From Bradyrhizobium sp. JYMT SZCCT0180 (GTDB lineage Bacteria > Pseudomonadota > Alphaproteobacteria > Rhizobiales > Xanthobacteraceae): a stretch of DNA of 64,000 bases. A program made the translations under genes and the position numbers. Positions within the stretch are counted from its first letter, which is position 1. Each line of letters starts with the position of its first letter. Location: positions 62,001 through 126,000 of the forward strand of contig NZ_JAFCLZ010000024.1 in assembly GCF_018130165.1 (NCBI RefSeq), read 5' to 3'. Of this stretch, positions 8,595 to 37,856 are shown piece after piece. The notes below the pieces were generated by a model that saw only the letters and a list, made by a program, of their open reading frames with translations, was not told the DNA's origin and did no database searches.

Positions 8595-9329
8595 TCAGGA
8601 ACTGGGAACGATCGAGGCTCGCTCGAAGGTCGATATTTCGGCTTCCTGGAAGGCGTGAGGCGCACGCTGGAACAGCATCCGCCGCTCGAATGCGCTTGAA
8701 CGCATGATGGGAAACCGGGTCATGACGTGTTCCCGCACGGCGCGGAAGTCGGACGCCATCAATGCCACCTTGGCCAATGCGTTCGGAAACTGGCGCGGGT
8801 CGGCGATGGTCTCGTTAAGAAAGACCCGGCGATAAAACGACTGGTGCGCGGGGCGAACGAGCGCGAGCCCGGTATCGGCGTTGAAATACTCGCATGCCAG
8901 ATAGGCCAGCCGCACTGTCAAATAAGGAAGCTCCGGGAAACGCTGGGCTTTATCCGGATCTGCAACGAAACGAGCCGGATCGATGAAAACTTCGCCGCGG
9001 TCGAGGCGCGGGTGAAGAACATCGCCGAACAAATCGGTGGTGCAGGACATCCGCTGGTCGGACGTCAGGACGTGGAGACGGATCGAGCTGTAAAGTTCAC
9101 CGTCGACATAGATTCCGAACGTCCAGGCATTGGGCGCATCGTCGTAGCGATCACTGTAGCGCTCGGTTCCTGACGGCGGAATTAAATTGCCGTGCGTATA
9201 GGCCCTGTAGCGCATCAAATAGAGCTGATCTTTCGCCTCAGGCGTTTCGATGGGCCGGTAATCGACGCGGTCAAACAGCGCGCCTCCCCGCACAGCAAAC
9301 GAAGCGCGCGGTTCGGCTCCGGATTTCAT
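8595..9329 (-). CDS. FeeM-like N-acyl amino acid synthase / autoinducer-synthase-fold acyltransferase
   Basis: The sequence matches the pattern of FeeM-type long-chain N-acyl amino acid synthases, which share the LuxI/GNAT fold and use acyl-ACP as donor: LYLMRYRAY near the start, then GIYVDGELYSSIRLHV, EVFIDPARFVAD and LPYLTVRLAYLACEYFNADTGL. No signal peptide or membrane span is seen. The chosen ATG at 9329 has GGAG six bases upstream and gives 244 aa; ATG 9341 and TTG 9350 are possible alternatives. It is downstream of the GGDEF-EAL gene on the same strand with a 146-base gap, and both sit between tolB and pal. The acyl acceptor cannot be predicted. Confidence 0.7.
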   Translation of the reverse strand: MKSGAEPRASFAVRGGALFDRVDYRPIETPEAKDQLYLMRYRAYTHGNLIPPSGTERYSDRYDDAPNAWTFGIYVDGELYSSIRLHVLTSDQRMSCTTDLFGDVLHPRLDRGEVFIDPARFVADPDKAQRFPELPYLTVRLAYLACEYFNADTGLALVRPAHQSFYRRVFLNETIADPRQFPNALAKVALMASDFRAVREHVMTRFPIMRSSAFERRMLFQRAPHAFQEAEISTFERASIVPSS

Positions 9330-9475
9330 CTCGTACTCCATCACTTCCAAACAACCTCAGCGAGTACGAAAAACTTAACAGCTCCTTAACAAAATTGCAA
9401 AGCTATCGACACGTTAGGGTTAACCTTTGCGGCCTTCGCGCCCGTAAAATTACGGAGCAATTACGGGAAGTTGTA

Positions 9476-11806
9476 TCAGGCAATCGAGCGCGACGGCACC
9501 ACGACCAGCGGTTCGTCCGGCGAACGGCGGCCGTGGGAAGCATTCAGCAACTGGCGAACCCGAACCGACGGGACCGGCCGGCTGAACAGATAGCCTTGCG
9601 CCTCGGTCACCGTGCCATCGGTGCTGATCAATTCGAGTTGTTCGTTGGTCTCGATGCCCTCGACCACGACCGACATGCCGAGATCGGCCGAGAGCCGCGC
9701 CACGCCCCGCAGCAATGTCAGCGGACGATCAGTATCGATGCCTTCGAGGAAGGAACGGTCGATCTTCACTTTCTGCAGTGGGAAGTTGTGCAGATAGCTC
9801 AGGCTCGAATAGCCGGTGCCGAAATCGTCCAGCGAGATCCGCACGCCGAGCGAATGCAGTTGCGACAGCACATCATGAGTCAGCTGCGTGTTGCGCAACA
9901 ACGAGGATTCGGTGATCTCGATTTCGAGCCGGTGCGCCGGCAGGCCGGAGACCTCGAGCGCGTAGCGGACTTCGCTCAGCACGTCGCGCTGATGGAATTG
10001 CTGCGGCGAGAAGTTGACGGCGACGCTGACGGCCTCGGGCCACTTCATGCACTCCATGCAGGCCTTGCGCAAAATCCAGCGGCCGAGATCGACGATCAGG
10101 CCCATATCCTCGGCGACCGGAATGATATCGATCGGCGATACCGTGCCGCGGACCGGATGATTCCAGCGCAGCAGCGCCTCGCAGGTCGCGATCTTGCCGG
10201 ACTTGATATTGACCAGCGGCTGATAGAACAGCTCGAACTCCTCGTTCGCCAGCGCCTTGCGCAGGTCGAGTTCAAGGATGCGGCGCGCTTCGACGGTTTG
10301 GGCCATCTCGTCGCGGAAGAAGCAGAAGGTGCCGCGGCCATCGGCCTTGGCGCGGTACAGCGCCATGTCGGCATTCTTCAGCAGCGTATCCGCGCTGACC
10401 CCGGGAGAGGTCATGGCGATGCCGACGCTGGCGCCGATCTCGACCAGATGATTGTCGATCTTGTAGCGCTCGCTCAGCCGGTCGACGATGCGCCGGGCGA
10501 GACCTGCTGCGTCCTCGTGGGAATGAATGTCCTGCTGGAACACCACGAATTCGTCGCCGCCAAACCGCGCCACGAAGTCCTCGGGACGCAACATCTCGCG
10601 CAGCCGGCCGGCAACCGCGCACAACAACTGATCGCCGCAGGGATGACCCAGCGTGTCGTTGACCTGCTTGAATTGATCGAGGTCGACGAACAGCAGCGCC
10701 GACAACCTGTCGGCGCCTTGCTGAATGGCCAGCAGGCGCCCAATTTCGTCGCGGAAATTGACCCGGTTGGGAAGCTCGGTGAGTTCGTCGTAACGCGCGA
10801 GATGGCTGATCTTGGCTTCCGCGTCGCGCCGCTCGGTGATGTCTTCGAGCAATACCACCGCGCCTCCGCCCGCCATCGGCTGGAACGTCCATGACAGGGA
10901 CCGGTTGCGCGTAAAGTCGGGATCGGTCGTGATCATGTCCCGCGCCTGCGAGCTCTCGATTTCCGACAGGATCATGCTGCCGCTCGCATTCGAAATCGAA
11001 CCGGAGGCGACGCAGGCTGCAATAATGTCGGACGCACTGGCGGCACCCTGCACCGAATCGTCAGGCAGGCTCATCATCTCGCTGAAGCGGTGGTTCATGA
11101 CCGCAAGGCGGCCGTCAGCGCCGAACATGCACAGCCCGTGCGGCATGTTGTTCAACGCGGTATCGAACTGGCCGGCCAGCGCCGCCTCGCGCTCGCGCGC
11201 CATCAGCGCCTGCATGAATATTCTGTGCAGATTGGCCGAAATTTGTATGACCGCCACGAGGAATGCCGCGCACAGCACCGACATGGCCATGTAATAGGGC
11301 GTGCCACGCAATGCCAGCGCGATGACGGTTGAACCGAAGCAAAGGTAAGCCTGCAGCTGGAATATCCATTGCCGTCCATAGGCCCTGCCCGCACCGCCCG
11401 CCACGAATCCGGTGGTTGTGGACAGACAAATCATATGGGCGACGGCGTCGTCGGAGACCAGCAGGGTGGTGCAGCACCAGATGCCGACCGCGGCGGCCTG
11501 GATGATCGCCCCGATCTGATGCCGGCTCTTCCACCGCGCAGCTTCATCGGCGGTCAGCGTCGCTTTGCGTGTATCGTACCGCCGCAAGTCGAACGCCCGG
11601 AGGGCGGCGGCGAAGACGAGAAGCGCGACACACGCCCAGATGAGCGGTTCTCCCGTCTTCAGCGCGGTCACGGCCGCCGCAACGGCGCCGAAGAAAAGAC
11701 CCGTGAGCAGCGGAGCGCGGGTTTCGAACAGCGAATCGATCAGCGCCGCGCGAAGATACGGCGACATCTTCTGATCGGACTCTCCGTTCTGGTTTGCGAG
11801 CTGCAT
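9476..11806 (-). CDS. Membrane PAS-GGDEF-EAL cyclic-di-GMP protein
   Basis: The 776-aa protein has about six N-terminal membrane segments (roughly 32-48, 53-71, 101-118, 122-138, 151-167 and 171-192), then a PAS domain at about 210-325. The diguanylate cyclase domain has an intact GGDEF at 416-420 and an inhibitory-site RPED (407-410) exactly five residues upstream. The phosphodiesterase domain begins near 515 with the EALLRW motif at 543-548 and continues through DDFGTGYSSLSYL. Both active sites look intact, so it may make and degrade c-di-GMP. The start has no strong ribosome site; M14 (11767) is an alternative. It lies 173 bases downstream of tolB. Confidence 0.93.
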   Translation of the reverse strand: MQLANQNGESDQKMSPYLRAALIDSLFETRAPLLTGLFFGAVAAAVTALKTGEPLIWACVALLVFAAALRAFDLRRYDTRKATLTADEAARWKSRHQIGAIIQAAAVGIWCCTTLLVSDDAVAHMICLSTTTGFVAGGAGRAYGRQWIFQLQAYLCFGSTVIALALRGTPYYMAMSVLCAAFLVAVIQISANLHRIFMQALMAREREAALAGQFDTALNNMPHGLCMFGADGRLAVMNHRFSEMMSLPDDSVQGAASASDIIAACVASGSISNASGSMILSEIESSQARDMITTDPDFTRNRSLSWTFQPMAGGGAVVLLEDITERRDAEAKISHLARYDELTELPNRVNFRDEIGRLLAIQQGADRLSALLFVDLDQFKQVNDTLGHPCGDQLLCAVAGRLREMLRPEDFVARFGGDEFVVFQQDIHSHEDAAGLARRIVDRLSERYKIDNHLVEIGASVGIAMTSPGVSADTLLKNADMALYRAKADGRGTFCFFRDEMAQTVEARRILELDLRKALANEEFELFYQPLVNIKSGKIATCEALLRWNHPVRGTVSPIDIIPVAEDMGLIVDLGRWILRKACMECMKWPEAVSVAVNFSPQQFHQRDVLSEVRYALEVSGLPAHRLEIEITESSLLRNTQLTHDVLSQLHSLGVRISLDDFGTGYSSLSYLHNFPLQKVKIDRSFLEGIDTDRPLTLLRGVARLSADLGMSVVVEGIETNEQLELISTDGTVTEAQGYLFSRPVPSVRVRQLLNASHGRRSPDEPLVVVPSRSIA

Positions 11807-11979: not shown

Positions 11980-13356
11980 TCAGGACAACAGCGGAGACCA
12001 TGCCGGATCGGAGGCGAAGCCGGGGGTCGGGACCCGCAGCTCGTTGCGCCCGGAGATATCGACGGTGAACAATGAAGGGCCGCTGTTGCCGCCGGGCTCG
12101 CGGAAGAACATCAGCACCCTGCCGTTCGGCGCAAAGGTCGGGCCTTCGTTGTGGAAGCCCGAAGTGAGAATGCGTTCGCCCGATCCGTCCGGCTTCATGA
12201 TGCCGATCGCGAACTGACCACCACCCTGCTTGGTGAAGGCGATGTAGTCGCCGCGCGGCGACCACACCGGCGTCGAATAGCTGCCCTCCTGGAACGAAAT
12301 GCGCTGCGCCCCGCCGCCGGTCGCCGGCATCACATAGATCTGCGGCTTGCCGCCGCGATCGGACTCAAAACAGATGCGGGCGCCGTCCGGCGAATAGGAC
12401 GGCGAGGTGTCGATCGCCGGCGTGTCGGTCAGCCGCGTCGTCGATTTCGAGCGCAGGTCCATCACGAACAGATTCGAATTGCCGCCCTGCTGCAGGCTCA
12501 TGATGACGCGCTGGCCGTCCGGCGAGAAGCGCGGCGAGAACGACATGCCCGGGAAGTTGCCGACGATCTCGCGCTGCCCGGTCTCGATGTTGAACAAATA
12601 GACGCGCGGGTCGCCCTGCCCGAACTCCATATAGGTGATTTCCTGGGTCGACGGCGAAAACCGCGGCGTCAGCACCAGGTCGGCGCCGCGCGTCAGATAT
12701 TTCACGTTGGCGCCGTCCTGATCCATCAAGGCCAGCCGCTTGACGCGGCGTTCCTTGGAGCCGCTCTCGTCGACGAACACCACGCGGCTGTCGAAGTAGC
12801 CCTTTTCGCCGGTCAGGCGCTCGTAGATCTGGTCGGAGATGATGTGGGCGATCCGGCGCCAGTATTCCGGCGAGGTGAAATATTGCTGGCCGGTGAGCTG
12901 CTGGCCGGTGTTGACGTCCCAGAGCCGGAATTCGGCCTTGAGACGGCCGTCGCCCTGCCGCGTCATGCGGCCGGTCACCAGCGCCTGCGCGTTGATGGTT
13001 TTCCAGTTTTGGAAGCTCGGTGCCGCGTCGATGTTGATGGTCTTTTCGACGTAGGCCGCCTGGTCGATCGGCGCGAACAGACCGCTGCGCTTGAGGTTGT
13101 TGGTGATGACCTGCGTGACGCCGACGCCGACCTCGGCGTCCGCCGGTGTGCCGGCGGCGAAATTCGGGATCGCGATGGGGAGCGGCGTGAATTCGCCCTC
13201 GGGCACAATGATGCGTTTCGGCGCCTGGCCGAAGGCGCGCTGGCCGCCCATCAGCAGGCCCGCTGACGCCATCCCGGTAATGATCTGCCGGCGGCTCGGG
13301 CGAAACAGCATGTTCGGCAATCCATCTTTGTCAGTCATCGCTTCGACTTTGCTCAT
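11980..13356 (-). CDS. tolB: Tol-Pal system periplasmic protein TolB
   Basis: The 458-aa precursor has an unusually long leader containing [16 protein letters not shown], which resembles a twin-arginine signal, with cleavage near RAFGQ-A. The mature part has the N-terminal TolB domain followed by a six-bladed propeller with repeated [11 protein letters not shown] and [11 protein letters not shown]-type blades. TolB links Pal to the inner-membrane TolQRA complex. It follows tolA with a 41-base gap. Starts at MSKVEAM or MTDKDG (13338) are both possible. Confidence 0.96.
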
Positions 13357-13397: not shown

Positions 13398-14375
13398 TCA
13401 GGTCTTCTGTTCGGTGAACACCGGCGCAAAATATTTCCATTCCTCGAAAAACGCCGCAGGCAGCTTGTACGGCTGGCATTCGATGATCGCGCGCAACGCG
13501 CTCTCCTGATAGACGCGCAAATACGGCGTTGCCGGCGTTCCTTCCGGAACCGGCATTCCCTCGAGCGTACCGTCGCGCTTCAGGCGGATCGCAAACGCCG
13601 CTTCCGGCTTCTGCGACTCGATGCCGCCATAGGGCTTCTTCCAGCATCGCTCGACCTGCTGCTTGAACATCGATCCCCAGGTCGCGGAGTTGTCTGCGGC
13701 TGTGCCCTTGGCGGTGCCCAGGGCGGCATTCGAATTCAAGGTGTCGCCGGTCGCGGCCTTTCGCGACGGGTCCCGCTTGTCGAGCAGCGCTGCGATACTG
13801 ACCAACGGATCTTCCGTCTTGGCCTTGGCATCCGCTTTGGCTTTCGCCTCGGCTTCGGCCTTGGCTTTCGCCTCTGCCTTGGCCTTCGCTTCCGCCTTGG
13901 CTTTTGCCCTCGCCTCAGCCTTGGCCTTTGCCTCCGCCTCTGCGTTCGCCTTCATCATCTCTTCCGCGATCGGATCGACCTTGGGCGGATCGGGCTTCTT
14001 GTCCGGCTTCGGCTCTTCCTTTGCCTTTTCGGCAACCTTCGGCGGGTCCGGTTTTTTCTCAACCGGCTTCTCTTCCGCCTTGGGCGGCGCCATTTCGGTG
14101 ATCACAGGCGCCTTCTCGGTCACCTTGCCGACCGCGTCTTCGAGCGGCTTGGCCTCGGCAACCTTGTCCACCAGCGGCTTCGGATTTTCCTTCTTGCCGG
14201 TCTTCTGGCCGGCCATGACCTTGGCGAGCTGGTCAGGGGAAATGACATCGACGGCGACCGATTCCTCCGGCGTCATCTCGTAAGCCTTGGTCGAGAACGA
14301 CACCAGTCCGTACCCCAGCACGAGGACGTGCAGGGCGACCGACGCAGCCAGTGTCTTGTCGATCTTGAGCTTCAC
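13398..14375 (-). CDS. tolA: TolA, inner-membrane bridge of the Tol-Pal system
   Basis: A GTG start preceded by GGAAAG at 6 bases gives 325 aa. One N-terminal membrane anchor (LAASVALHVLVLGYGLVSF) is followed by a Lys/Pro/Ala linker and a long alanine-lysine-glutamate helix (AEAKAKAEARAKAKAEAK type) and then the C-terminal TolA-III domain, WGSMFKQQVERCWKKP to the end, with two Cys residues. TolA spans the periplasm to reach TolB and Pal under the force of TolQR. The C-terminal domain is closely similar to a separate secreted protein encoded at 36889-37374. Confidence 0.95.
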   Translation of the reverse strand: MKLKIDKTLAASVALHVLVLGYGLVSFSTKAYEMTPEESVAVDVISPDQLAKVMAGQKTGKKENPKPLVDKVAEAKPLEDAVGKVTEKAPVITEMAPPKAEEKPVEKKPDPPKVAEKAKEEPKPDKKPDPPKVDPIAEEMMKANAEAEAKAKAEARAKAKAEAKAKAEAKAKAEAEAKAKADAKAKTEDPLVSIAALLDKRDPSRKAATGDTLNSNAALGTAKGTAADNSATWGSMFKQQVERCWKKPYGGIESQKPEAAFAIRLKRDGTLEGMPVPEGTPATPYLRVYQESALRAIIECQPYKLPAAFFEEWKYFAPVFTEQKT

Positions 14376-14985: not shown

Positions 14986-15030
14986 GCATGATCTGGTCCG
15001 AAAACCGGTTTCCACTTTTCGGGATCATGC
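14986..15030. repeat. GCATGATC palindromic repeat between tolQ and tolR
   Basis: A 45-bp element with GCATGATC at the left and GGATCATGC at the right, around a CCGAAAACCGGTTTCCACTT core. It belongs to the same family as the triple array at 15830-15999 and the element at 32688. The tolQ stop codon (TGA) is formed by the GCATGATC arm. Confidence 0.85.
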
Positions 15031-15798
15031 CCGCTCGTCGATCTGGCGCGACAGGATCGCTGAAAATTCGTCGGCGAACCCCTCCAGCCGCTGGGCCTGC
15101 CGGTTCACCTCGGAGATGAACTTATTGTAGAAAATAGTCGCCGGAATGGCAGCGATAAGGCCGATCGCCGTGGCAAACAGCGCCTCCGCGATACCAGGCG
15201 CCACCACCGCCAGCGAGGTGTTCTTCGAGGCCGCGATCGACTGGAAGCTCGACATGATGCCCCAGACGGTTCCGAACAGGCCGACGAACGGCCCGGCCGA
15301 GCCGACCGTGGCCAGCACCAGAAGCCGCCGTTCCAGCCGCTCCACTTCACGGGCGATGGAGACGTTCATCACCTTCTCGATCCGCATCTGCAGGCCGGCA
15401 AAGGACCTGGTCTGGCTCTCGAACGAACGTTTCCATTCGCGCATCGCCGCGACAAAGCACGCTGCCATGGATTGGGTCGGCTTGGCGGAGAGCGAGCGGT
15501 AAAGCTCCTCGATCGATTGCCCGGACCAGAACGCCTGTTCGAAACGGTCCATCGCGCGCTTGGTGCGCGCATAGAGAAAGATCTTGTCGATGGCGATCGC
15601 CCAGACCCAGACCGAACAGGCGAGCAGCCCCATCATCACTGATTTGACGACCCAGTGCGCCTGCAGGAACAGCGAAATCAGCGACACGTCTGACGCGGCC
15701 AGCGACAGCGATTGCGTTTCGACCTGTTGGGCGCTGGCGGACGAAGCCGTTGCCAGAAGGCAGGCCAGCGTCACGAACTGCAGGAATCTCCGGATCAC
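15025..15798 (-). CDS. tolQ: TolQ, MotA/ExbB-family proton-channel subunit
   Basis: TolQ forms the inner-membrane proton channel with TolR. The family body starts at LISLFLQAHWVVKSVMMGLL and includes LLVLATVGSAGPFVGLFGTVWGI and the membrane pair GIAEALFATAIGLIAAIPA. I use GTG at 15798, with GAGAGG upstream, giving 257 aa; the frame is open 25 codons further, but that part is translated palindromic repeat. The resulting N-terminus (VIRRFLQFVTLACLLATASSASAQ) looks like a cleavable signal peptide, which is not usual for TolQ. It is the first gene of tolQRAB, and the promoter must lie in or beyond the repeat array. Confidence 0.93.
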   Translation of the reverse strand: MIRRFLQFVTLACLLATASSASAQQVETQSLSLAASDVSLISLFLQAHWVVKSVMMGLLACSVWVWAIAIDKIFLYARTKRAMDRFEQAFWSGQSIEELYRSLSAKPTQSMAACFVAAMREWKRSFESQTRSFAGLQMRIEKVMNVSIAREVERLERRLLVLATVGSAGPFVGLFGTVWGIMSSFQSIAASKNTSLAVVAPGIAEALFATAIGLIAAIPATIFYNKFISEVNRQAQRLEGFADEFSAILSRQIDERA

Positions 15799-15829
15799 CA
15801 GATCAAATCCTCTCAATGCTCTCGTTTGG

Positions 15830-15999
15830 GCATGACCCTCTTCGGAAAACCGGTTTCCACGTTTCCGGATCATGCTCTATCTCTTGTTTGGAGCATGATC
15901 CTTTCGGAAAACCGGGTCCCACTTTTCCGGATCATGCTCTGTCTCTTGTTTGGAGCATGATCTTTTCGGAAAACCGGGTCCCACTTTTCCGGATCATGC
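15830..15999. repeat. Tandem array of three GCATGATC palindromes upstream of tolQ
   Basis: Units at 15830-15875, 15893-15937 and 15955-15999 each read GCATGA(T/C)C...TCGGAAAACCGG...CACTTTTCCGGATCATGC and are separated by 17-base spacers sharing CTCTTGTTTGGA. The period is about 62 bases. Each unit can form a long imperfect hairpin. Confidence 0.9.
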
Positions 16000-36337: not shown

Positions 36338-36805
36338 CTAGAACGGGCTGTCGCTCAAGCCCGCGACATCCGCCGGACGCGGTCCGGGCGCAGCCCAGTG
36401 AAAGCGCCGGTCTTTCTCGGCTATCTCGATATCGTTGATGCTGGCCTCGCGCCGGCGCATCAGGCCATGCTCGTCGAACTCCCATTGCTCATTGCCGTAG
36501 GAGCGATGCCACTGCCCGGCAGCGTCGTGCCACTCATATTGAAAGCGCACCGCGATGCGGTTGGCGTCGAACGCCCAGAGATCCTTGATCAGGCGATACT
36601 CATGTTCCTTCGCCCATTTGCGGGTCAGGAATTCGACGATCGCCGCGCGGCCGTGGAAAAATTCCGCGCGGTTACGCCAAGTACTGTCCTCGGTATAGGC
36701 CAGCGAGACGCGCACCGGATCGCGCGAATTCCAGGCATCCTCCGCCATGCGGGCTTTCTGCGCGGCGGTTTCGCGGGTGAACGGCGGCAAGGGCGGACGC
36801 GACAT
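36338..36805 (-). CDS. DUF1348 / NTF2-like protein
   Basis: The 155-aa protein ([56 protein letters not shown]) matches DUF1348 closely, including [30 protein letters not shown]. The fold is SnoaL/NTF2-like; function is unknown. GGAG is eight bases before the ATG. It is the first gene of an operon with a TetR regulator. Confidence 0.92.
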
Positions 36806-36857: not shown

Positions 36858-36888
36858 AGAGTCAAGCCTGACGAGTCAGATCAGGGCG

Positions 36889-37374
36889 TCAGCAGCCCCG
36901 GCAGATCGAAGGCGTGCGGGAATTGAACAAGGCGTCCGCACCTTTCCGGTCGAATTTCGCTTTATCTTCAGGGCTCATTTTCGTTTTATCTTCGGTGAAG
37001 ACCGGGGTGAAGAGTTTCCACTCCTCATAATATTCGATCGGCAACTTGTATGGTTGGCAAGCGTTGAGCGCTTTGATTGCGCTCTTCTGATACGCCGTAA
37101 CAGAGTCCGAGTTGGCGGGGCTCTCTGCCACCGGCTGCTCGGCCAGCGCCCCATCTCGCGTCAGGCTGATCTTGAAGGCGGCCTCGACCTTCGCCGCCGG
37201 GTCACCACCAACAGGCTTGAGCCAACATTTCGCCACTTGATTCCTGAACATCGGCCCCCAGACGTGAGCATGCGTTTCCTTGCGTTCGGCCGCCGACACC
37301 GGAACGAGAACGGGCATCAATGCGATTCCGATGAGACCGATCCTCAACACCCGGAATCCAGTTCCAACAGACAT
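36889..37374 (-). CDS. Secreted stand-alone TolA C-terminal-domain protein
   Basis: The 161-aa precursor has a signal peptide (FRVLRIGLIGIALMPVLVPVSA) and then a domain closely similar to the TolA C-terminus encoded at 13398: WGPMFRNQVAKCWLKPVGG, VEAAFKISLTRDGAL, AYQKSAIKALNACQPYKLP and EEWKLFTPVFTE. The two Cys residues are conserved. It lacks the membrane anchor and helical domain of TolA, and adds a 30-residue tail ending CRGC. ATG 37374 has GGAG eight bases upstream; 37380 is also in frame. It follows ybgC by about 30 bases and is likely in the same operon. It may bind TolB/Pal or CpoB without force transmission. Confidence 0.88.
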   Translation of the reverse strand: MSVGTGFRVLRIGLIGIALMPVLVPVSAAERKETHAHVWGPMFRNQVAKCWLKPVGGDPAAKVEAAFKISLTRDGALAEQPVAESPANSDSVTAYQKSAIKALNACQPYKLPIEYYEEWKLFTPVFTEDKTKMSPEDKAKFDRKGADALFNSRTPSICRGC

Positions 37375-37406
37375 CGACATGTCTCCAACAATTCAGCGAC
37401 AGACCA

Positions 37407-37856
37407 TCAATCCAGATCGGCCTTCAGCAGCTGCCGGAGCGATTTCGGGATCGGCTGCGCCCTGCCCTCGCAGATGAACGCGACGCGCACCTTGGCGGTG
37501 ACCAGCGCTTCCGCGCCGCGCCGCACTTCCTGCGCCAGCGTGATCGAGGCGCCCTTCACCGCAATCGGCCAGGTCACCACGTCGAGCAGATCGTCCATCC
37601 GAGCCGGGCGCAGGAAGTCGATCTCCATCGATCGCACCACGAACGCAAAACCCGGCGTCTCCGCCTGCGCCTGCTCGAACAGCGCATGCTGATCGGCGCC
37701 CATCAGCCGCAGGTGGTTGGTGCGGCCACGTTCCATGAAGCGCAGATAATTGGCGTGATAGACGATGCCGGAGAAATCCGTGTCCTCGTAATAGACGCGG
37801 ACCTGCATGTGATGGCGGCCGTCGCGGACCGCGCCGTCGATGTGGGGTAAAGTCAA
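37407..37856 (-). CDS. ybgC: Tol-Pal-associated acyl-CoA thioesterase YbgC
   Basis: The 149-aa hotdog-fold protein starts at TTG with GAGGG six bases upstream. VRVYYEDTDFSGIVYHANYLRFMERGR contains the catalytic Asp and His of the YbgC family. Family members hydrolyse acyl-CoA thioesters. It normally precedes tolQ directly; here tolQ is 21.6 kb away and the next gene is the TolA C-domain protein. Confidence 0.95.
   Translation of the reverse strand: MTLPHIDGAVRDGRHHMQVRVYYEDTDFSGIVYHANYLRFMERGRTNHLRLMGADQHALFEQAQAETPGFAFVVRSMEIDFLRPARMDDLLDVVTWPIAVKGASITLAQEVRRGAEALVTAKVRVAFICEGRAQPIPKSLRQLLKADLD

Follow-up and report, generated by a model that had tools for sequence, protein, structure and literature searches.

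We analysed a stretch of 64,000 nucleotides (the window) from Bradyrhizobium sp. JYMT SZCCT0180, which belongs to a genus of soil bacteria and legume symbionts. The window holds a small gene next to ybgC, whose product resembles the C-terminal domain (domain III) of TolA. The gene, the parts of its product and the genes to which it is compared are as follows.

36889..37380, minus strand: complete gene with an ATG start, encoding an exported-looking, stand-alone TolA-III-like protein of 163 aa (ORF reading, BLASTP, alignment A1)
37288..37380, minus strand: predicted signal peptide, residues 1-31, with presumed cleavage near S-A/A (residues 29-31) (sequence, alignment A1)
36988..37269, minus strand: TolA domain III-like domain, residues 38-131 (BLASTP; AlphaFold with Foldseek and VIA matches to TolA-III)
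36922..36987, minus strand: variable linker, residues 132-153, of low model confidence (alignment A1, AlphaFold, dN/dS)
36892..36921, minus strand: conserved C-terminal tail, residues 154-163, ending S-I-C-R-G-C and then TGA (alignment A1, dN/dS)
37407..37856, minus strand: ybgC, acyl-CoA thioesterase (TIGR02799, 156.7 bits)
36338..36805, minus strand: DUF1348 gene, the usual ybgC neighbour in the genus (PF07080; genus ybgC loci)
36868..37405, no strand: segment of 538 bp absent from the near relative G012 (comparison of relatives)
13398..14375, minus strand: full-length TolA with anchor, domain II and domain III (TIGR02794, 95.4 bits)
15025..15873, minus strand: tolQ, 21.5 kb from ybgC (identified by reading)
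11980..13356, minus strand: TolB (identified by reading and by its position after tolA)

A preliminary description of this DNA had placed the gene at 36889-37374. A gene does lie at this site, but its start codon is at 37380, and the description had omitted a C-terminal extension of 30 residues that follows the TolA-like domain and ends in SICRGC. The reported position next to ybgC was correct: the ybgC stop codon is 26 bp upstream of the start of the gene, and the two are probably on one transcript. The site is not where tolQ normally begins, as had been supposed, since tolQ is 21.5 kb away and DUF1348 usually follows ybgC in the genus (see below). Full-length tolA is located after tolQ and tolR, and the stand-alone gene lies outside this tolQRA operon. 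The G+C content of the gene is 0.569, compared to 0.62-0.65 in ybgC, DUF1348 and tolA.

The 163-aa protein consists of the signal peptide, the domain and the tail only; the transmembrane anchor and domain II of TolA are absent, in agreement with the preliminary description. Its N-terminus resembles a cleavable signal peptide, and A30 and A31 at the presumed cleavage site are invariant in all 14 rows of the alignment of syntenic members (alignment A1). This agrees with the signal peptide proposed earlier, and the protein is probably exported, judging by its sequence.

The previously noted match to the TolA C-terminus over about 90 residues was confirmed by BLASTP, and the motifs quoted for it are present. 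Residues 37-133 aligned to the last 97 residues of the window TolA with 50/97 identities (52%) and an E-value of 8e-34. A search of the whole genome with the protein returned the protein itself, TolA (E 1.8e-29) and one distant TolA-like frame on another contig (G000:C7:215561-215824). This frame has about 400 codons with a long N-terminal part, and its domain is 33% identical (E 1.3e-7); weaker second TolA-like matches of this distant-paralogue kind were seen in most of 60 sampled genus genomes. Scans of the 163-aa protein against Pfam, NCBIfam and PADLOC gave no match, nor did PDB sequence searches with the protein alone or with a profile, and TolA-III was reached in the PDB by fold comparison only. 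The AlphaFold model, built from 11 sequences, was of good quality over approximately residues 40-130, apart from a drop at 51-70 (block means 74 and 79). It was poor in the signal and in the final 30 residues, and pLDDT was below 50 in 60 of the 163 residues. Foldseek placed 6s3w (the TolA-III/TolB complex), 2x9a and 1lr0 in its top rows with a probability of 1.00 and a best E-value of 1.2e-3 (6s3w), none being at or below 0.001. When VIA realigned Foldseek's own match list, 4g7x, 2x9a and 1lr0 scored Z 10.4-10.5 over 88-93 residues. The best PDB matches were TolA-III structures from Pseudomonas, Vibrio and others, and TonB structures ranked below them. The predicted fold is therefore closest to solved TolA-III structures, which bears out the structural match on which the preliminary reading depended. 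Pfam TonB_2 (PF13103), the TonB C-terminal domain, was matched weakly by nine of the 14 syntenic members (best E 0.008) and not by the window protein itself, and with the lower rank of the TonB folds this places the protein closer to TolA-III.

The likeness to domain III of TolA (TIGR02794) extends to individual residues. Of the domain columns, 51 show conservation in 95% or more of 96 TolA rows; the 14 syntenic proteins retain 35-40 of these 51, compared to 5-14 identities in the other 45 columns. Both domain cysteines, the three tryptophans and the end-strand residues F124 and F128 are retained in 14/14 and P126 in 12/14. In contrast to TolA, the gene product lacks the anchor and domain II, is encoded outside the tol operon and carries the 30-residue, ICRGC-bearing extension. 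The window TolA ends three residues past TE, as ...FTEQKT, whereas the stand-alone protein continues from the end strand into the linker and the ICRGC tail, so that the tail adjoins the presumed binding edge.

The preliminary description had made one-domain homologues next to ybgC in relatives a check on its reading, and such genes do occur in some relatives: there are 14 syntenic members among 265 genus genomes. In protein searches of these genomes at E<=1e-20, a threshold at which more divergent copies could be missed, short stand-alone ORFs besides the true TolA were found in 16/265, the source genome included, and all 16 have a TolA match as well. Searching 295 genomes across the family added one further stand-alone ORF, in another genus (G124). 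The named carriers are Bradyrhizobium jicamae SZCCT0349, B. uaiense, B. macuxiense, B. ivorense, B. viridifuturi, B. pachyrhizi and B. altum. All 14 syntenic genes, the one in the window included, lie in a single interval between ybgC and a GST gene. The order is ybgC-gene-DUF1348 in the window, ybgC-DUF1348-gene-GST in twelve genomes and ybgC-gene-GST in G392. The three other stand-alone TolA-III ORFs (G446, G375 and G124) are in unrelated neighbourhoods. The one in G375 (L100:9582-10076) adjoins an IS110-type transposase gene. A TolA-like paralogue also lies in the region of the G446 ORF (L099:1169-3815), and its last residues occur again as a second, partial copy 1.4 kb further along. A search of a plasmid collection for the gene gave no match. 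A single-sequence scan of genome contigs returned 62 pattern matches, none of them a relative; an alignment-based query of the contigs did recover relatives.

From a 60-genome sample of the genus we took the 30 best ybgC loci and surveyed 1.5 kb around each. No stand-alone TolA-III gene was present within this distance at 28 of the 30 loci, and DUF1348 follows ybgC in 25 of these 28 gene-free loci. Two or three ybgC matches were seen in a number of genus genomes, and two ybgC-like frames are adjacent in G044 (L062:7260-8482) and several others. In the near relative G012, 11 bp stand in place of the 538 bp that contain the gene, and the flanking DNA is 93-95% identical to the window except for the TetR/DUF1348 part, at 90%. 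A second near relative, G460, likewise lacks the gene at the site. The gene was thus gained in the source lineage, or lost in the relatives, as a unit. Given its rarity and its absence from the site in near relatives, it is dispensable for Tol-Pal.

Phylogenetic analysis placed the 14 syntenic proteins in one clade (98/89), separate from the group that holds the window TolA and other TolA proteins of the same genus. The thinned tree comprised 41 TolA and 17 stand-alone rows over a short alignment of 96 columns, with three rows on very long branches. A quicker tree of 113 rows recovered the same cluster of 14 proteins with an SH-aLRT of 90. The TolA rows nearest to the clade were mostly from other genera of the family, with weak support, one being named Bradyrhizobium sp. 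NFR13, and the stem between the clade and TolA is long (0.38 plus 0.42). Since the alignment has 96 columns and the branches are long, we are unsure of the attachment point of the clade; a single origin of all 17 stand-alone proteins was not rejected (p-AU 0.395). A partial duplication of the local tolA was rejected on the basis of the separate clade and the gene order in relatives, and the data do not point to a recent copy of it.

Selection was estimated from pairwise Nei-Gojobori dN/dS as a ratio of sums over related pairs of the 12 closer members. The ratio was 0.49 in the signal region, 0.29 in the domain, 0.33 in the linker and 0.059 in the last ten residues, based on 66, 66, 56 and 59 of 66 pairs, respectively, the rest being undefined or out of range. 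Median dS ranged from 0.50 to 0.92 across the four regions, with 0.79 in the domain and 0.66 in the tail. The gene is intact and under purifying selection, and its last ten residues are the most constrained part of the protein. The suggestion that the gene is a remnant of a partial tol duplication does not hold, given an intact gene under purifying selection, a clade of its own and an empty site in G012.

The shared C-terminal tail is the strongest new point of this analysis. SICRGC ends 13 of the 14 syntenic members (alignment A1). The tail is absent from the remaining one, G392, and from the three non-syntenic stand-alone proteins; no frameshifted tail was found in any frame behind the G392 gene. 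We looked for the tail elsewhere with the pattern I-C-R-G-C followed by a stop codon or by TGG (which code TRR also allows), and used the reversed pattern as a control. The source genome has nine matches, compared to none for the control. Eight of the nine are ends of open frames (loci L181-L185 and L187-L189), namely the stand-alone TolA-III gene and seven others. These eight exported-looking tail ORFs fall into five sequence clusters: the stand-alone TolA-III protein, two VasI-like short proteins, a FecR-domain protein, a GHRQPR-type protein and three Gly/Ser-rich proteins. Five of the seven others passed a crude signal rule, and the two failures appear signal-bearing by eye. One genome therefore has a common C-terminal motif on unrelated proteins that look exported by the crude rule. 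Chance occurrence of the tail was ruled out by the control counts, and a DNA repeat was ruled out because the tail codons vary synonymously.

The tail also recurs in other genomes of the family. In 149 genomes of the family there were 147 matches, 15 of them ending in TGG, versus 7 for the control; the seven genus genomes within this sample had 52 versus 1, with 6-9 per genome. The 239 class genomes from outside the family gave 58 matches, 20 with a stop codon, versus 9 for the control. Of these 58, 14 were one identical 18-mer ending in TGG, which is possibly a conserved non-coding site. The outside-family loci examined yielded one ORF of at least 40 aa with the tail, which has no signal. Outside the one family, a clear excess of the tail is not seen in the class sample. 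Pooling the tail loci, which are not a random sample, gave 114 distinct sites, of which 19 end in TGG, 17 have no 40-aa ORF and 78 are ORFs, 77 of these from the family. By the crude rule, 69/77 family tail ORFs have a signal-like N-terminus, compared to 99/217 coding-like ORFs that are 80-330 aa long; when only starts within the first 60 residues were allowed, the numbers were 61/77 versus 56/217. Stand-alone TolA-III proteins account for 13 of the 77, all passing the rule. The 77 ORFs form 16 clusters, six with more than one member, and 11 of the 16 representatives pass the rule. The consensus ahead of the tail is acidic and then L-[DN]-x-[KR]-[ILV]-[KNR]-[SN]. A search with the C-terminal 61 residues of one tail protein, tail included, found a relative in 39/40 genus genomes, and among the matches listed all but two reach residue 61. 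The 30 loci retained from this search all end in ICRGC; 20 further chosen loci, mostly weaker, gave ICRGC 18 times and VCRGC and ICHGC once each.

The occurrence of the tail on exported-looking proteins that are otherwise unrelated points to an independent function, as a tag that serves docking, thiol modification or the binding of a metal. Sorting signals of the CTERM type are built of three parts: a motif, a transmembrane segment and a basic end. In the ICRGC tail, by contrast, neither a hydrophobic helix nor a basic end follows the motif, cysteine is the last residue, and no clear excess is seen outside one family in our sample. The tail resembles PEP-CTERM, GlyGly-CTERM and MYXO-CTERM, as these are presented in excerpts of the respective papers (PMC1569441, PMC3237569, PMC11980579), in being one short C-terminal homology region on many unrelated exported proteins per genome; MYXO-CTERM likewise has an invariant cysteine. 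Such motifs have marked sorting or anchoring systems before. Searches of Pfam, NCBIfam and the open-licence PMC literature returned no description of the tail. We tentatively propose, while giving it somewhat less than an even chance, that Bradyrhizobium and its relatives use an undescribed tag of about 12-15 residues, with I-C-R-G-C at the C-terminus, on exported proteins, and that a dedicated machinery recognises, anchors or modifies the terminal cysteines. The TolA-III protein would be one tagged member, its TolB-type peptide-binding domain being placed by that machinery. If so, an enzyme or receptor for ICRGC remains to be found, and tail-bearing Bradyrhizobium are amenable to laboratory manipulation. 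We compared 20 tail loci in six genomes, including all seven other loci of the source genome, and found no candidate partner gene. The neighbours that tail loci have in common either belong to loci that correspond between genomes or come from generic families (for example a short-chain dehydrogenase, 6/20).

A somewhat doubtful but serious alternative is that the tail, rather than being a sorting tag, is a site of metal binding or thiol redox chemistry that appeared on several proteins. The CxxC arrangement agrees with it, and no cysteines other than those of the tail occur in the presumed mature region of 17/17 proteins of the GHRQPR cluster and 13/14 of a second tail cluster. However, the I, R and G and the preceding basic stretch recur with the cysteines at the extreme end of unrelated proteins, and with one VCRGC and one ICHGC there are few variants, a constraint that a simple CxxC does not require.

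For the protein as a whole, we favour, at slightly below even confidence, the reading that it is exported, has no anchor, and combines a TolA-III-like peptide-binding domain with ICRGC, a cysteine tag specific to the lineage, at the C-terminus. The tail would fix the location or linkage of the protein via docking, thiol modification or metal binding, and the same may apply to the other proteins that carry it. TolA-III has one firmly established partner, TolB, which would be the first candidate partner of the exported domain. In excerpts of the structural papers, TolA-III binds the disordered N-terminus of TolB by parallel strand addition, which displaces the C-terminal helix in Pseudomonas TolA (PMC7066135, PMC8928145). 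Strand addition with TolB is also covered in part of PMC4339652, according to which changing D418 and K420 to proline, in the last strand of TolA from E. coli, abolishes TolB binding and gives a tol phenotype. The preliminary description was right to name TolB among the contacts of TolA-III; it also named CpoB, which the cited parts of PMC8928145 and PMC7391070 place on domain II, and Pal, which is disputed, since TolA-III did not bind Pal in vitro (PMC7391070, in part), while PMC2821528 (in part) cites earlier in vivo work in favour of a contact with Pal. Close to where mature TolB of the window presumably begins (KRIIVPEG), there is a hydrophobic triplet like the TolA box as given in an excerpt of PMC7066135. 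With this triplet and an end strand that is mostly kept, a TolB-binding, force-free domain is the most direct reading, and TolB binding by the stand-alone domain is plausible. The protein has no membrane helix and so cannot pass on proton-motive force; any effect on Tol-Pal would be passive, as a competitor, buffer or adaptor. The affinity of TolA-III for TolB is weak (Kd 40-200 uM in an excerpt of PMC7391070), so a competitor would need to be abundant. No natural free TolA-III domain was described in the open-licence PMC literature searched, excerpts of PMC12204202 included, and such a domain would permit a direct test of Tol-Pal tuning by a soluble competitor.

Recruitment of the domain outside Tol-Pal, as a peptide-binding module for another exported partner, possibly a tail-bearing protein, is rather unlikely. 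It would account for the long stem away from TolA (0.38 plus 0.42), the sporadic distribution, the gene's own context with ybgC or DUF1348 and the company of other tail proteins, but the neighbours have no common theme and no partner was found in the neighbourhoods compared.

Less likely still is the switch on Tol-Pal first proposed for this gene, in which, under some condition, Tol-Pal activity falls because TolA and the free domain compete for TolB. Soluble TolA domains reportedly disturb the envelope. The protein retains the end-strand residues and most TolA-conserved positions, and the window TolB retains its triplet. Colicin N and phage g3p compete with TolB for one site on TolA, as stated in part of PMC4339652; competition at the TolA-TolB strand-addition site is an established means of disturbing Tol and would be common to both cases, with colicin and phage proteins occupying TolA and the stand-alone protein occupying TolB. 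A decoy leaves unexplained the tail, whose constraint exceeds that of the binding domain; the copy was not found in most of the genus in the 265-genome search and the ybgC survey; and domain II, on which CpoB binds (PMC8928145, PMC7391070, in part), is absent here. Decay of a functionless fragment of a partial tolA duplication is very improbable, since the gene, although small, patchy and of lower G+C (0.569 vs 0.62-0.65), is intact in 14 genomes in one interval, with low dN/dS (0.29 in the domain, 0.059 in the tail), a conserved signal peptide and tail, and a clade apart from the window TolA group.

Elsewhere in the window, pal is split from tolB by two intervening frames (8595-11806, by reading), one of 776 aa resembling a GGDEF/EAL protein and an acyltransferase-like one of 251 aa. 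A tolB-pal distance of about 5 kb is likewise seen in many relatives.
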